From contig JAQDNC010000009.1 of NCBI GenBank assembly GCA_027660625.1, forward strand, positions 1 to 54,122: 54,122 nucleotides of DNA, written 5' to 3'. This document shows, piece after piece, positions 11,480-18,925 of this stretch. The stretch is from Coriobacteriaceae bacterium AM100-PB1-1D-6A. GTDB taxonomy: Bacteria; Actinomycetota; Coriobacteriia; Coriobacteriales; Coriobacteriaceae. The translations under genes and the position numbers were made by a program. How positions within the stretch are numbered: position 1 is the stretch's first letter; each line of letters opens with the position of its first letter. The notes under the pieces were generated by a model. The model did no database searches. It had not been told where the DNA came from and saw only the letters and a program-made list of their open reading frames with translations.

Positions 11480-12083
11480 ATATGCCTCCCTGTCATTGAG
11501 TAACCTTGTCTGAGCCATCATACAGAACACCCACGGCGGCTCTGTCTGCAACGGGTAAAAAGTCATATTGTCCCGAACATGAACGGGACGCCATCTCGGG
11601 GCTCAATCGTTCCAGCCAAACGCTGAGCCACCACATACATAGCTGGCGACACCAAGCGCGACCGTTCCACGAACCTCGTTTCACCCCGTAGAAAAAAATT
11701 TCAAAATTAGTCTTGTCAAATCAGCAAAACGAACGTACTTTAAAGATGACCGCTCCGGTGGTCATCGTTTGATCGAGCATATTCAGTTTCAGTTTTCAGC
11801 GTGTAAGAGAAAGAAGATCGGCAAAGTACAACCCCAAACGCAATGACAACTTAATGAGGTAACTGCCACATGTGAGGCGCCCAGGGCATTGCTGTCTCGA
11901 TTTTGAGCACGATGCCTTCCGCCTTGCATGGGCCGTTCCATCCCGCCCCTGCAGCAACTGCCTCACGGGCTCATTGAAAACCGCATAGCACCCCAACGTC
12001 AGCACATCACCCACGGCAAGCACATCACTCACGACAACCAACACATCAACAAACAGCACGAACATCAACCGATTGGAGAAGCT
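11480..12083. other. 604-bp intergenic region upstream of the ClpP/VirD4 module
   Basis: No convincing gene is seen. A possible plus-strand promoter is TTGTCA (11713-11718), 17 bases, TACTTT (11736-11741). A hairpin GATGACC/GGTCATC (11745-11766) follows directly. The last 80 bases before the unknown gene (about 11995-12075) are rich in A and C, poor in G and contain repeated AGCACATCAC-like units; such unstructured RNA could be a Rho-loading or translation-enhancing leader. Confidence 0.45.
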
Positions 12084-12974
12084 ATGACAAACCACCACGC
12101 TGAAGACGGCGACAAGAAAAGCATTCTGGATGCCCGCATTGAGCGAGCATATGCAAACGAATATGACGCCGCCTTTGCCGCCGCGACCATCAAGAACTAC
12201 GCGTCGCTACCGCTCGCGACGATCTTGGCCGACCACCCTCAACTGCTGAAGCGCTGCACAAAGATCATGGGCGACCCCGACATTCGCAAGCTGACAGACC
12301 CCTATGCCCCAAAACGCGACAGCGATTCGTACGTTCTTACCGTAGGCTGCCTAGCCCATATGCTTACGGCGCTCGACACGAAACTCAAGCTCGAATGGGA
12401 ACCCGACGAGCGTCATGAACTCGAAAGCAAGCGGAACACCCTGCGCACCGCACTGTTCCTTCCGTTGGACGGCCTCAAGCGCTGCAACGTCGAGCTCAAT
12501 ACACAGGCGCGGCAAAAGCCCGGGACCACGGGGCAGAAAACTCCAAGACCCCATGCGGCCATCGTCGACCGCAACCGATATAACCGCATGACCGCGCACT
12601 TTTCCGCCGAGGGAGCAGCCATAAGGACGCTGATCGACCTGCTGTGCCTCCTGAGCATCAACGAGCTATTTGAGGGCTATCTCGCCCTTGTTCCCGCGAC
12701 GGCACCCAAGTCGGTAGCAAAGATCATCGAGACCTGCAGACGCCAGTTTGAGCGCCATCGCAATGGCAGCGAGATGAACGCCAGTATCGCGCAGTACTAC
12801 GCTGCTCATTACAAAAATGACGGATGTGCCCCCGTCGAGCATCAGCTGCGGCTCGCCTACACCACGCCCGCCGCAACGCTCCATCGCTTTGGAGCCCTTG
12901 GCACTTGCGAGCCGCACGAACAGGCGGCCTGCCCCACAACCGAGCTCGATCTGAGGCTCAGACGAACCCTGTAG
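12084..12974 (+). CDS. Unknown protein of the ClpP/VirD4 module
   Basis: I do not recognise this 296-residue protein. It starts at ATG 12084 with TTGGAGAAG placed 3 bases or so upstream. The sequence looks soluble and mostly helical, without signal peptide or membrane segment. It begins with a charged region (EDGDKKSILDARIERAYANEYDAAFAAAT), contains TVGCLAHMLTALDTKLKLEWEPDE in the middle, and a hydrophobic helical stretch AIRTLIDLLCLLSINELFEGYLALV near residue 185. A basic linker around residues 142-160 separates two halves. It is the first gene of a plus-strand trio with a ClpP-like protease and a VirD4-like ATPase, separated from the protease by about 100 bases. It may be an adaptor, a DNA-processing accessory or a remnant of a conjugative element. 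Confidence 0.7.
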   Translation: MTNHHAEDGDKKSILDARIERAYANEYDAAFAAATIKNYASLPLATILADHPQLLKRCTKIMGDPDIRKLTDPYAPKRDSDSYVLTVGCLAHMLTALDTKLKLEWEPDERHELESKRNTLRTALFLPLDGLKRCNVELNTQARQKPGTTGQKTPRPHAAIVDRNRYNRMTAHFSAEGAAIRTLIDLLCLLSINELFEGYLALVPATAPKSVAKIIETCRRQFERHRNGSEMNASIAQYYAAHYKNDGCAPVEHQLRLAYTTPAATLHRFGALGTCEPHEQAACPTTELDLRLRRTL

Positions 12975-13037
12975 CCCGCCAGCCCCTCCGCGGGCAACAA
13001 TCCTATTCCACAACACAACCAACAGAAAGGAGTCCTC

Positions 13038-13085
13038 ATGGACACCAATCATTCCCCCCATCATCAGCCCCCTCACCATGCGTGA
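13038..13085 (+). other. Short overlapping frame with the strong ribosome site before clpP-like gene
   Basis: AAAGGAG is followed at 13038 by an ATG that reads 15 codons and stops at TGA (13083-13085), overlapping the ATG of the ClpP-like gene at 13078. The stretch holds a C6 run (13054-13059) and a C5 run (13068-13072). Removing one C would join this start to the protease frame, adding 13 residues (MDTNHSPIISPLT). It is either a coupling leader or the frameshifted true start. Confidence 0.5.
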
Positions 13086-13656
13086 ATCCGCCCGAGGTAT
13101 CACGCTCACCAGCATTTACGATGAGATGCTCGCCCGTCGCGAGCTCTCCGTCATGGGAAACATCGAAACCCCGATGGCCCACGACCTATGCCAGCAGATC
13201 CGCCTGCTCGATGCCACCGACCCCAGCCGCCCCATCACCATATTTGTCGCCAGCGCCGGCGGAAGCGTGCGATCGGGTCTTGCGATCTATGACGCCATGC
13301 GCCTCGCATCGTGCCCCATCCGCACCGTCTGCCTGGAATTCGCCGCGTCCATGGGCGCCGTGATCTTTATGGGCGGCGACGAACGCCGTATGGCGCCCCA
13401 TGCAGAGCTCATGATTCACGACCCGCTGATCCCCCAGGGGGCAGGCGGCTCGGCACTTGCGCTGCAGGAAACCAGCCGGCGTCTCATGCAGACCCGCAAG
13501 ACCCTCACGCAAATCCTCTCGGACCGCAGCGGCCTCACGCCCAAGCGCATCCAGTCCCTCACCGCAAAAGACACCTACCTTTCGGCCGAGCGCGCCGTCG
13601 AGCTCGGCTTTGCCCACGAAATCCTCTCGACCACCAAGGAGGTCGCCCATGTCTAA
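13078..13656 (+). CDS. ClpP-like serine protease (S14), accessory type
   Basis: The 192-residue protein keeps the whole ClpP catalytic set: GGSV oxyanion loop (61-64), nucleophile Ser91 in AASMGA, His114 in MIHDP, and Asp165 in AKDTYLSAERAVELGF. It is therefore probably an active, self-assembling peptidase rather than a remnant. It is not the housekeeping ClpP: the N terminus differs, and no clpX or trigger-factor gene is near. The strong ribosome site belongs to an ATG 40 bases upstream in another frame, so the true start may be frameshifted. The 3' end overlaps the start of a VirD4-like ATPase gene by 8 bases, which implies coupled translation. Related stand-alone ClpP proteins occur in phages (head maturation) and conjugative elements. 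Confidence 0.85.
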   Translation: MRESARGITLTSIYDEMLARRELSVMGNIETPMAHDLCQQIRLLDATDPSRPITIFVASAGGSVRSGLAIYDAMRLASCPIRTVCLEFAASMGAVIFMGGDERRMAPHAELMIHDPLIPQGAGGSALALQETSRRLMQTRKTLTQILSDRSGLTPKRIQSLTAKDTYLSAERAVELGFAHEILSTTKEVAHV

Positions 13657-14953
13657 CCTCGCCAGCCGCCTCGCCGCATCTGAGTCCGCATCGTCCACCA
13701 TCCTCGCCAAGGATCGAACGCTTTCCTGCAACACCCGCCAAACGGGACTCAACAACAACGCACTTGTGATCGGCCCCTCGGGAGCCGGCAAGACCCGAAA
13801 CGTCCTCAAGCCCAACCTGCTGCAAATGAACGCAAGCTACATCGTGCTCGACACCAAAGGCACGCTCTGTCGCGAAGTGGGACCCGTGCTGGCAGCCCAC
13901 GGTTACCGCGTGCAATGTCTCAACTTCGCCGACCTCAACACCGTCCCGGCCCTTGCGCCCGGCATCGAGCGCTGCGGCTACAACCCCCTGAGGCACATTC
14001 GCCGCAAGGCGGACGGCAGACCCAACCAGCAGGACATCCTCTCGGTGGCAAAGGCCATCTGCCCCATCGAGGACAACAACCAGCCTTTTTGGGATCATGC
14101 GGCGGCAAACCTGCTGTCGTGTCTTATCGCCTACGTCACCGAACAGCTACCCGCCGACGAGCAGACGATCAGCTCGGTCATCAAGCTGATCGAGCACCTG
14201 CAGGACGGTGCCACGGGTCGATTGTTTGACGACCTGATCACGACCGATCCCCAAAGCTATGCCCTCTCGCTATGGCGGCGCTACGCCATTACGCAAAATG
14301 CCGAGCGCATGCACGCGAGCATCGTCGGCATCCTTGCCGAAAAGGTCATGTGTCTGGGATTCGACGGTGCGGCACAGCTCTATCGTGAGTGCCATCAGGT
14401 GGACTTCGCTTCCATGGGGCACACCCCCTGCGCCCTGTTTGTAACCGTGAGCGATATTGACCGCAATCTCGATCCGCTGACCGGCCTCTTTATTTCGCAG
14501 GCGTTTATGGGCCTCATTCGTGAGGCCGATAGGCAGCCCGATGGCAGCCTGCCCGTGCCCGTGCGCTTTATGCTCGATGACTTCGCAAATCTGCAGATCC
14601 CCCAGATCGACAACGTGCTCTCGATTATCCGAAGCCGCAACATCTGGGCAACGCTGCTGCTGCAGTCGACCAACCAGCTCGATGCGCTCTATGGCGAGGC
14701 ACGCGCACGCTCCATCATGGGCAACTGCGACACGCATCTGGTGCTGGCGTTCCAGGATCCCGAGAGTGCCCGGGTGTTTTCCGACCGCGCCGACGCGCTG
14801 CCCAGCACGCTCATGGCGACGCCGATCGATCGCTCGTGGCTCTTTGTACGCGGTCGCACTCCCGAACAGGTCGAGCGCTTTAGGCTCGAAGACCATCCGC
14901 TCTACGGGGAGCTGCCCGAGGCGCAGCGAGGCCATGCGGAGGCCGAGATCTAG
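13649..14953 (+). CDS. VirD4/TraG-like coupling ATPase without membrane anchor
   Basis: The protein is 434 residues from ATG 13649, which has AAGGAGG upstream and overlaps the protease stop (ATGTCTAA). It shows Walker A GPSGAGKT (42-49), a DTKGTLCREVG segment (68-78), Walker B VRFMLDDFANL (305-315) and LLLQSTNQLDALYG (337-349), the pattern of the VirD4/TraG/TrwB family. Those are hexameric pumps that feed DNA-protein substrates to type IV secretion channels. Here the usual N-terminal membrane helices are absent, and the Walker B Glu is Asp. No relaxase, VirB4 or channel gene is near. Function in conjugation is therefore doubtful; it may serve a soluble process together with the ClpP-like protease. 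Confidence 0.85.
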   Translation: MSNLASRLAASESASSTILAKDRTLSCNTRQTGLNNNALVIGPSGAGKTRNVLKPNLLQMNASYIVLDTKGTLCREVGPVLAAHGYRVQCLNFADLNTVPALAPGIERCGYNPLRHIRRKADGRPNQQDILSVAKAICPIEDNNQPFWDHAAANLLSCLIAYVTEQLPADEQTISSVIKLIEHLQDGATGRLFDDLITTDPQSYALSLWRRYAITQNAERMHASIVGILAEKVMCLGFDGAAQLYRECHQVDFASMGHTPCALFVTVSDIDRNLDPLTGLFISQAFMGLIREADRQPDGSLPVPVRFMLDDFANLQIPQIDNVLSIIRSRNIWATLLLQSTNQLDALYGEARARSIMGNCDTHLVLAFQDPESARVFSDRADALPSTLMATPIDRSWLFVRGRTPEQVERFRLEDHPLYGELPEAQRGHAEAEI

Positions 14954-15025
14954 GCGCAGGGTTCTCGCAGCGCGCGGCGTCCCGGCGATGTTCCACAAAG
15001 GCCGTGCGCCCCGGGGCCACGGCAA

Positions 15026-15061
15026 AGCAAAGGGGCCCGCATCCGATGGGATACGGGCCCC
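15026..15061 (-). terminator. Terminator of pgi
   Basis: A 13-bp stem with one C-A mismatch (15032-15044 with 15049-15061, GATG loop) lies 33 bases past the pgi stop. On the minus strand it is followed by TTTGCTTTG. It may also end plus-strand transcription from the VirD4-like gene. Confidence 0.8.
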
Positions 15062-15094
15062 TGGCTATAAGGCGCGATGCGTTAACAGCAGCGA

Positions 15095-16929: not shown

Positions 16930-16972
16930 TTGACGATGTCCGGACGAGCGGGTATTATCGAACAAGTATTCG
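16930..16972 (+). promoter_or_regulatory. SOS promoter with LexA box
   Basis: TTGACG (16930-16935) and TATTAT (16953-16958) are separated by exactly 17 bases. Directly downstream is CGAACAAGTATTCG (16959-16972), one base from the Gram-positive/actinobacterial LexA operator form CGAAC-N4-GTTCG. A repressor bound there would cover the start of transcription of the polY gene. Confidence 0.8.
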
Positions 16973-17001
16973 ATAAGAACATGTGTTTGATGGGAGGACG
17001 C

Positions 17002-18507
17002 GTGGGACACGAGCGTCACACCTATATCTGCATCGACCTCAAGACGTTCTACGCCAGCGTCGAGTGCGTCGACCGCGGTCTCGACCCGCTCACCACCAAC
17101 CTGGTCGTTGCCGACGAATCGCGCGGGCGCACGACCATCTGCCTTGCCATCACACAGGCCATGAAAGACCTCGGAATCCATAACCGCTGTCGCCTGTTCG
17201 AGATTCCCGACGGTATCGACTACATCAAGGCCGTACCGCGCATGCAGCACTACATGGAGGTGTCGGCGCAAATCTACGGTATCTATCTGGAATTCGTCAG
17301 CCCACAGGACGTGCACGTCTACTCCATCGACGAATGCTTTATCGACGTGACGCCCTATCTGGACCTCTATCACACCGACGCTGAAGGCTTCGCCTGCATG
17401 TTGCGCGACGAGGTCCTGGCGCGCACCGGCATCACGGCAACGGTTGGCATCGGCCCCAACCTATTCCAGGCCAAGGTGGCACTCGACATTACCGCCAAGC
17501 ACGTACCCAGCCGCATCGGCATACTCGATGACGAGACCTTTCGCAAGGAGATCTGGCCCCATCGCCCCATCACCGACATCTGGGGCATTGGGCCCGGCGT
17601 GGCAGCACGACTCGAAAAATACGGCGTCTACGATCTGATGGGCGTCGCGGCGCTCGACGAAAACCTGCTCTACGACGAGCTCGGCGTCAATGCCGAGTAT
17701 CTTATCGACCACGCCTTTGGGCGCGAGCCGACAACTATCGCCGATATTCAGGCCTATCGCCCGCAGGCAACCTCAACTACCACAGGACAGGTGCTCTCGA
17801 AAGGCTATGCCTATGAACAGGCCTACACCGTCTTGCGCGAGATGGTCGACAACGCTGTGCTGGACTTAGTCGATAAGCACGTGGTGTGCAACAGTATCTC
17901 GCTCTTTGTAGGCTACGCGAGCGAGCGCGCCGACATACGCCGCCTCGACGCCAGCGGCACAGCACAATATGTAGACGGATGCGGGCATTTGCGTTCGAGC
18001 ACGTCGAGCATCGAACCCGCCGCAACCGACGGCCCCGAGCTCACGCCCCGCGCGCCCAAGCCCGTCCAACGCGACGACGAACGCCGACGTTTGGTGCGAG
18101 AGGCACAGGCGATTGACGGCATCTTTGTGGGCGAACACGGCGGCAAGCCGCGTGGTGGCTATGCCGCGCTCTTTGCGCACTCCAACGCCTCGCGCAAGCT
18201 GCCCGAGCGCACCAATTCGTTTAAGAAGATCATGGGCTATTTCGATGAGCTCTGGGCGCAGACTGTCGATCCCAAACGACCGGTCAAGCGCATCAACCTG
18301 GGATTTGGCAACCTCATGCCCGAGGAATTTACCACTATCGACCTGTTCAGCGATGTTAAGGCCGATGAGCGCGAGCGCGACCTGGCGCGCGCTGTCCTGG
18401 CCGTGAAGGGCAAGTACGGCAAGAACGCGCTCGTCAAGGGATTAAGCTTCACCGCCGGCGCCACCGCACGCGAACGCAACGATCAGGTAGGAGGACATCG
18501 TGCCTAA
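17002..18507 (+). CDS. Y-family DNA polymerase (UmuC/UvrX-like)
   Basis: The 501-residue protein is a translesion polymerase. It starts at GTG 17002, 4 bases after GGGAGG. Catalytic-core motifs are clear: ICIDLKTFYASVE (residues 9-21, first Asp at 12) and VYSIDECFIDVTP (Asp110-Glu111), followed by TATVGIGPNLFQAKVA and a helix-hairpin-helix WGIGPGVAARLEKYG. The C-terminal little-finger region is present. UvrX/YqjW-type enzymes of Gram-positive bacteria and plasmids pair with a YolD protein, and a YolD gene overlaps this one by 8 bases. A LexA box over the promoter indicates induction by DNA damage. Between residues about 330 and 370 there is a low-complexity, proline- and arginine-rich insert. 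Confidence 0.92.
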   Translation: MGHERHTYICIDLKTFYASVECVDRGLDPLTTNLVVADESRGRTTICLAITQAMKDLGIHNRCRLFEIPDGIDYIKAVPRMQHYMEVSAQIYGIYLEFVSPQDVHVYSIDECFIDVTPYLDLYHTDAEGFACMLRDEVLARTGITATVGIGPNLFQAKVALDITAKHVPSRIGILDDETFRKEIWPHRPITDIWGIGPGVAARLEKYGVYDLMGVAALDENLLYDELGVNAEYLIDHAFGREPTTIADIQAYRPQATSTTTGQVLSKGYAYEQAYTVLREMVDNAVLDLVDKHVVCNSISLFVGYASERADIRRLDASGTAQYVDGCGHLRSSTSSIEPAATDGPELTPRAPKPVQRDDERRRLVREAQAIDGIFVGEHGGKPRGGYAALFAHSNASRKLPERTNSFKKIMGYFDELWAQTVDPKRPVKRINLGFGNLMPEEFTTIDLFSDVKADERERDLARAVLAVKGKYGKNALVKGLSFTAGATARERNDQVGGHRA

Positions 18508-18925
18508 GTCCCAACAACAGCCGATGCGGCCACCGACGCCTTTTGAACGTCTAGCGGACCCCGAGGGAAGACGTCGCTCCTCCGACCCCAAGCTCACCGC
18601 CAACGGCGCCGTCCGCGCCGGCCGTGCCGCGCAGTTTATGCCCTTTGCCGCCCTCACGGGATACTACGAGCTCGTGCGCAAACAAGAAATCACTGTTGAG
18701 CCCAAATGCGAACTCACGGAAGAAAAAGCCCTCGAGCTTTCGAAAAAGCTCGAGGGCCTCAAACGCGGCGACTTGGTGCGCGTCACCTATTACGATATGT
18801 ACGGTTATCGTAGCCGCACGGGCATCCTCGACGAAGTGTTACCCGCATTCAAGCTGCTCAAACTCAGGGATATCGCCATCAACTTCGACGACATCCAAGG
18901 CATCGAGCTGCGTGGTCGAGCCTAG
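18500..18925 (+). CDS. YolD-like protein
   Basis: This 141-residue protein matches YolD-like proteins: NGAVRAGRAAQFMPFAALTGYYELVRKQE near residue 35 and a C-terminal GDLVRVTYYDMYGYRSRTGILDEV core of the SH3-like YolD fold. YolD proteins accompany Y-family polymerases in Firmicutes and Actinobacteria and probably assist them. GTG 18500 follows GGAGG and overlaps the polymerase stop, so the two are coupled and share SOS control. The coding sequence contains a perfect 13-bp hairpin that serves as a minus-strand terminator, and the stop codon shares a CTAG with the stop of the convergent surface-protein gene. Confidence 0.88.
   Translation: MPKSQQQPMRPPTPFERLADPEGRRRSSDPKLTANGAVRAGRAAQFMPFAALTGYYELVRKQEITVEPKCELTEEKALELSKKLEGLKRGDLVRVTYYDMYGYRSRTGILDEVLPAFKLLKLRDIAINFDDIQGIELRGRA
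18723..18757 (-). terminator. Minus-strand terminator embedded in yolD
   Basis: GCCCTCGAGCTTT (18728-18740) pairs perfectly with AAAGCTCGAGGGC (18745-18757) around CGAA. On the minus strand it is followed by TTTTTCTTCC, a classic rho-independent terminator. The only minus-strand gene upstream is the surface-protein gene ending at 18922. Confidence 0.8.

Follow-up and report, generated by a model that had tools for sequence, protein, structure and literature searches.

The HerA-SIR2 and HerA-DUF4297 defence systems each pair an effector enzyme with an FtsK/HerA-superfamily ring ATPase. In the CmdTAC antiphage system, according to the available part of PMC11618068, the host ClpP removes the antitoxin, and for VirD4-type coupling proteins the available part of PMC7431656 reports that anchor-deleted forms from several plasmids were non-functional in transfer, with TcpA as a partial exception. 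Here, we describe a three-gene cassette in which a VirD4-like ATPase without a membrane anchor lies beside a ClpP-like protease and a fast-evolving protein, X. It is found in a 54,122-nucleotide stretch of contig JAQDNC010000009.1 from Coriobacteriaceae bacterium AM100-PB1-1D-6A (the window), a Collinsella aerofaciens-like chromosome whose nearest loci, with ATPases 98-100% identical, come from the C. aerofaciens species complex. The cassette is a conserved accessory chromosomal set of genes. We further propose, with a confidence just short of an even chance, that it is a laterally spreading cassette of Coriobacteriia encoding a single cytosolic VirD4-ClpP machine that would likely act in conflict or defence, with X as its recognition or adaptor subunit.

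The trio is encoded on the plus strand, as are all positions given below for its features, between two ordinary-looking minus-strand genes that read as a HAD-type hydrolase and glucose-6-phosphate isomerase (PGI). X (296 residues) occupies 12084..12974, the ClpP-like protease 13078..13656 and the VirD4-like ATPase (434 residues) 13649..14953, and the last two genes share 8 bases (13649-13656). In the window gene list, read by eye without a family-library scan, we recognised no relaxase or channel gene of conjugation and saw no Clp ATPase beside the cassette ClpP. A preliminary description of this DNA had reported the same arrangement and overlap, the lack of those genes nearby, the protease residues Ser91, His114 and Asp165, an ATPase Walker A motif and the missing anchor, and all of these points held up.

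The cassette itself (11596..15025, ~3.4 kb, no strand assigned) corresponds to a segment missing from close relatives. Twenty Collinsella genomes had no VirD4 match at E 1e-40; five of them align well on both flanks, and the remaining 15 are too diverged for the site to be defined. Of the five, four close relatives (L113-L116) carry 54-63 bp in place of window 11596-15025, and the fifth, a C. aerofaciens relative (L112), has ~930 bp that read by eye as a deoC gene; with this deoC-like gene (L112:499-1431) the position is one of variable content. In comparisons with 16 chosen relatives, the cassette genes had synonymous divergences of 0.024-0.042, versus 0.176 for the adjacent isomerase, and the ratio of nonsynonymous to synonymous divergence (dN/dS) was 0.13 for ClpP, 0.13 for VirD4, 0.23 for X and 0.02 for the isomerase, from pairs that all share the window and so are not independent. 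These ratios, together with the low synonymous divergence relative to the isomerase, indicate that the cassette is under purifying selection and that recombination within the C. aerofaciens complex has probably spread it.

We surveyed 396 Coriobacteriia genomes for the ATPase and its companion protease. VirD4 was matched in 52 of them at E 1e-40 and in 45 at E 1e-70; the module ClpP (E<=1e-33) was present in 45, and 43 of these also carried VirD4 at E<=1e-70 (Fisher p 1.2e-52). Near-copies of a single C. aerofaciens type make up 16 of the 43, and p was 8.8e-37 after these had been collapsed to one. Two genomes have VirD4 without the module ClpP: in G300 the VirD4 match covers the later part only, and in G387 a 38-residue ClpP fragment lies upstream. 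A weaker VirD4 match in G252 is adjoined by a diverged ClpP. At the level of loci, a ClpP open reading frame (ORF) accompanies this type of VirD4 in 32/37 and was found in 0/3 outgroup loci (L018 repeats one L077 copy), the five exceptions being two Bifidobacterium loci, one Lawsonibacter locus, G300 and G387. ClpP gave no match in 17 distant-VirD4 loci (L026-L042), several of which end at contig ends. In many loci ClpP overlaps or abuts VirD4; it lies downstream rather than upstream in L017, L088, L094 and L099, and other genes intervene in L075, L101 and L102.

The relatives sit at differing loci across Coriobacteriia, and among the listed neighbours of sister loci, read by eye without a systematic family scan, no conjugation genes were recognised. 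VirD4 was at most 33% identical among the matches listed for plasmids (best 20 of 613 records) and likewise for phages (best 20 of 39 records); viral contigs held no match to patterns derived from the window VirD4. Across the phylum, 1/296 evenly drawn genomes matched, namely the nearest one. Two ClpP-VirD4 fusions in the database (P0001 and P0003) were taken to be frame-shifted copies rather than natural fusions. Some genomes hold two copies of the ClpP-VirD4 module that lie apart in the tree (L077 and L074/L078; genomes G162 and G154). The module stands within ~6 kb of prfC (release factor 3, by eye) in L073, L074, L080, L084 and L105, and other copies are near cysS-rlmB-yacP and tuf.

The protease ORF matches Pfam CLP_protease (E 5.4e-45) and falls under the TIGR00493 equivalog cut-off (121.3 vs 308.6), which was applied to the cassette ClpP alone. 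Each of 18 genomes searched has another ClpP, 29-34% identical to that of the window, and the two module-less genomes among them have only this other ClpP. The catalytic residues Ser91 (13348..13350), His114 (13417..13419) and Asp165 (13570..13572) are all present; among module ClpPs, Ser and His are kept in 32/32 and Asp in 30/32. The surface that receives the loops of Clp ATPases, defined here after the available part of PMC6853987, has a different composition in the two groups of ClpP. Position 82 is Phe or Tyr in 9/9 housekeeping ClpPs of these bacteria and in 0/32 module ClpPs, which have Ala (22), Ser (5), Thr (3), Gly (1) or Leu (1) instead, and position 112 is hydrophobic in 9/9 housekeeping and acidic in 23/32 module ClpPs. 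We take these positions, in the E. coli ClpP numbering, to be the pocket residues. The window protein has Leu76 (13303..13305) in the place of the aromatic at 82 and Arg104 (13387..13389) in the place of Phe at 112, and it keeps an aromatic at position 62. One row (L159) was excluded from both ClpP groups and a duplicate (L077_55) from the module group. Full loss of the pocket is argued against by position 62, still aromatic in 30/32 module ClpPs, and by position 114, which is Leu in 23/32.

In these alignments, the pocket that docks Clp ATPases is rebuilt in the module ClpPs, and another partner is likely. Such a partner is expected where the active site is kept but the standard docking pocket is changed, and the adjacent VirD4-like ATPase is the obvious candidate. 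ClpP and VirD4 distances correlate over 31 loci (r 0.73, with 0/2000 permutations as high), a correlation to which shared ancestry contributes. In all copies compared (15 in L001-L015 and 16 in L043-L058, sets that overlap in genomes), ClpP can start at an ATG farther upstream that has its own ribosome-binding site and is equivalent to position 13038. In the window, the run of C at 13054-13059 has one base more than its counterpart in these relatives, which puts a start at 13038 out of frame and makes the ORF begin at 13078; either strain variation or a sequencing error may account for the extra C.

The ATPase matches Pfam T4SS-DNA_transf (E 2.1e-32) and narrowly passes the NCBIfam CD1115 model NF045973 (255.7 bits, cut-off 250). 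Its Walker A motif, GPSGAGKT (13772..13795), includes Lys48. The maximum 19-residue hydropathy before Walker A is 0.42, so no anchor is apparent, and all 38 proteins of this VirD4 type that we examined are likewise anchorless, with maxima of at most 1.04 except for L073 (1.37, in a long read-through frame). The corresponding values for outgroup VirD4 proteins are 1.52-2.81 in 11/12. The remaining one, L041 (0.51), is a distant VirD4 of a Roseburia metagenome-assembled genome (MAG; L041:5687-7594) that starts without an anchor and keeps Walker B Asp-Glu. In related ATPases the Glu of Walker B is the catalytic base. The window protein has Asp310-Asp311 at this place (14576..14581), and Walker A together with Asp-Asp was found in 38/38 proteins of the clade, a few of them near-copies; the 12 outgroup proteins have Asp-Glu, 11 of them as matched by pattern and 1 as read by eye. 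In a wider set with many near-copies, Asp-Asp was present in 104/104 homologues in which the motif was found, and 16 more had no pattern match. The clade ATPases also lack a segment of ~30 residues near the domain end and carry one short insertion. A tree of 47 proteins, built by a quick method and containing two long branches, places 35 of this VirD4 type on one side of a branch (Shimodaira-Hasegawa-like approximate likelihood ratio test, SH-aLRT, 97) and 12 distant proteins on the other, and mixes families and genera. An LGF tripeptide in the window ATPase was considered as a Clp docking loop and dropped, as it changes within the clade.

Protein X belongs to no known family: none in Pfam matched it up to E 1, and we judged the one NCBIfam match, at E 0.65, to be chance. 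Its open frame spans 11928-12974; the ATG at 12084, behind GGAG, is the likelier start, and the preceding in-frame leader (11928..12083) is also present in P0213 and P0238, which belong to another X allele class. Structure prediction was poor (mean predicted local distance difference test score, pLDDT, 50.7), with a helical outline at low confidence. Profile comparison of X proteins from other genera with the window X, over 275-289 columns, gave 97.8% (hhalign, E 8.5e-13) and 96.8% (E 2.5e-10), and the X profile search reached 9 proteins only. The Bifidobacterium X alone gave no significant match to the window X (4% probability), and a mixed profile including it does match. In nine locus pairs, mostly from different genera, identity was 21-33% for X, 63-87% for ClpP and 57-72% for VirD4; between the two Bifidobacterium loci it was 71% for X and 89% for VirD4. 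These comparisons indicate that X is homologous end to end across genera and evolves faster than its two neighbours.

X was found in 17/43 genomes of the genus Collinsella. A second allele class, 41-45% identical, is common in the protein database, where two of its members share the window leader; none of the 43 Collinsella genomes yielded it. Among proteins P0121-P0240, the two X allele classes are sharply distinct, and the common 5' leader hints at allele replacement. A short pattern, xLxxR[LI], recurs close to one or both ends of X proteins: its instances in the window are ILDARI (12123..12140), at the N terminus, which recurs as a pattern in X of other genera, and ELDLRL (12942..12959), at the C terminus. 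That the pattern might be a docking motif is a guess on our part. A small helical protein of other loci, X193, was considered as a homologue of X and rejected by profile comparison; the short motif is all that they share.

We also examined which genes accompany the module elsewhere. A PD-(D/E)XK-like protein lies within 3 kb of it in 7/45 genomes, and a superfamily 1 (SF1) helicase stands near it in 5/20 loci scanned, with a Mokosh-like helicase in some sister loci. By fold or model, the added proteins came closest to a SPARDA nuclease subunit, Hjc, Mokosh and TOTE, none of which was seen in the window cassette. In a Lawsonibacter MAG, a single frame of 984 residues (L024:10004-12958) joins VirD4, DHH and DHHA1 domains and is either a nuclease fusion or an assembly artefact. 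PADLOC-DB 2.0.0 gave no strong match for the cassette: the ATPase matched mad8 (3.7e-8) and PtuA (0.034) only, and X and ClpP matched nothing. Looking for the MADS system likewise gave no result. In L017, L083, L085, L086, L020, L021 and L101, neighbour genes begin with a shared RLRxDY-type motif; they had no clear Pfam match where scanned and are possibly a further component of one branch.

Around the window cassette we saw no integrase and no clear terminal repeats. Inverted repeat arms near its ends (11575-11592 and 14976-14993, 83%) are 1 of 9 inverted pairs listed, and a terminator-like hairpin of the neighbouring PGI gene (15031..15062, minus strand) lies just beyond it. Farther along, a Y-family DNA polymerase gene (16930-18507) is followed by a YolD-like gene (18500-18925), both named by eye, with an 8-base overlap.

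In the machine that we tentatively favour, an anchorless, CD1115-related ring ATPase, with Asp replacing the catalytic Glu, would work with the dedicated ClpP paralogue; X would sense or deliver the target, the ring would gate or feed ClpP, with a nuclease or helicase joining at some of the sister loci. Ring assembly, the contact between ring and ClpP, the role of X and the defence function are what we infer from sequence. The rebuilt ClpP pocket and the sister loci with nucleases or helicases favour, but do not prove, ring-ClpP or DNA work and a defence role. Several observations weigh against this machine. The pair is not obligatory, as shown by ClpP without VirD4 in G288 and G368 and by VirD4 without ClpP in the Bifidobacterium and Lawsonibacter loci. 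Ordinary genes surround many loci, some of which occupy recurrent sites (prfC; cysS-rlmB-yacP-tuf; PGI), and no nuclease was seen by eye in the gene list of the window cassette. An anchorless start is not by itself distinctive, since the Asp-Glu outgroup protein L041 shares it. Enrichment of defence-type genes in the flanks is modest (11/85 neighbours vs 3/95 control proteins, p 0.023) and loses significance once the five helicases are removed (6/80 vs 3/95, p 0.30). A bolder form of the proposal is a new class of ATP-driven protease-immune machine, in which an FtsK/HerA-superfamily ring, related to the DNA pumps of conjugation, would have taken the place of the AAA+ unfoldase at ClpP; a hypervariable subunit would direct this machine against invading phages or plasmids, perhaps against protein bound to their DNA. 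We regard this form as doubtful.

Some of the same evidence would suit an ATP-dependent protease of housekeeping or stress, with the VirD4-like ring as a new ClpP unfoldase for cellular proteins, X as an adaptor and no part in defence. The near-constant ClpP partner, the rebuilt pocket, the recurrent chromosomal sites with ordinary neighbours and the weak defence enrichment all fit, but a housekeeping role accords poorly with patchy presence, clean empty sites, a tree that mixes families and genera, the low synonymous divergence relative to PGI, a very fast X and the nuclease or helicase partners at some loci, and we consider it rather unlikely. Still less probable, in our view, is a defence machine that handles DNA with ClpP undocked, in which the ring would move or sense DNA for nucleases while ClpP removes an inhibitor or processes X. 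VirD4 relatives are DNA pumps, and the PD-(D/E)XK-like proteins, SF1 helicases, VirD4-DHH frame and loci without ClpP point the same way, as does the precedent of ClpP removing an inhibitor in CmdTAC (PMC11618068, available part). The overlapping or abutting genes, the correlated distances and a window cassette in which no nuclease was seen by eye speak against it. The preliminary description had named as the plain alternative a remnant of a conjugative element, that is, a truncated coupling protein beside a ClpP gene by chance. The narrow pass of the CD1115 model fits a remnant, as do outgroup relatives from Coriobacteriia (L090-L092) that share long downstream genes (F15 and F16), which by eye we take to be conjugation channel genes. 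We nevertheless judge it very unlikely, given a single anchorless Asp-Asp clade with conserved catalytic residues, purifying selection, a near-constant ClpP partner, no conjugation gene seen by eye in the window and the transfer defect of anchor-deleted coupling proteins, TcpA partly excepted (PMC7431656, available part). Relatives were not found always to sit inside conjugative elements, nor X to be a known relaxase accessory; instead, the module recurs at variable loci without recognised conjugation genes. The stand-alone system suggested earlier is thus borne out as a recurring set, and its coupling to ClpP or DNA and its use in defence stay at the conditional strength given above.

If the ATPase docks on ClpP, the cassette would be a case of ClpP driven by a VirD4/FtsK/HerA-type ring, not an AAA+ Clp ATPase, and would show conjugation-type machinery turned to another task; if it is defensive, it would be a form of immunity not yet described and common among gut Collinsella. 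A single cluster of VirD4 proteins represents 19,061 member sequences, and the database name "type IV secretory system conjugative DNA transfer family protein" need not mean conjugation in such genomes. We found no description of a VirD4-ClpP pair in the titles and abstracts of the literature searched, a scope that left out most subscription papers, and to our knowledge no system in which ClpP is powered by a VirD4/FtsK/HerA-type ring has been described.

Compared with CD1115-type VirD4 coupling proteins, the cassette ATPase is homologous over the nucleotide-binding domain, has Walker A and scores above the NF045973 cut-off, but it is anchorless, has Asp-Asp rather than Asp-Glu, lacks the ~30-residue segment and has no conjugation genes recognised by eye near it. 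The cassette ClpP shares the fold family and Ser-His-Asp triad of the housekeeping ClpP that works with ClpX or ClpC, but it is a separate paralogue with a rebuilt docking pocket and no Clp ATPase seen adjoining. Unlike HerA-SIR2 and HerA-DUF4297, the cassette has a protease as the partner of a VirD4-like ATPase and carries a variable third protein. As in CmdTAC, ClpP would take part in a putative antiphage system, but here it is a dedicated gene of the cassette and not the host's own. Each enzyme family is known; the pairing of VirD4 with ClpP is, within what was searched, a new combination.

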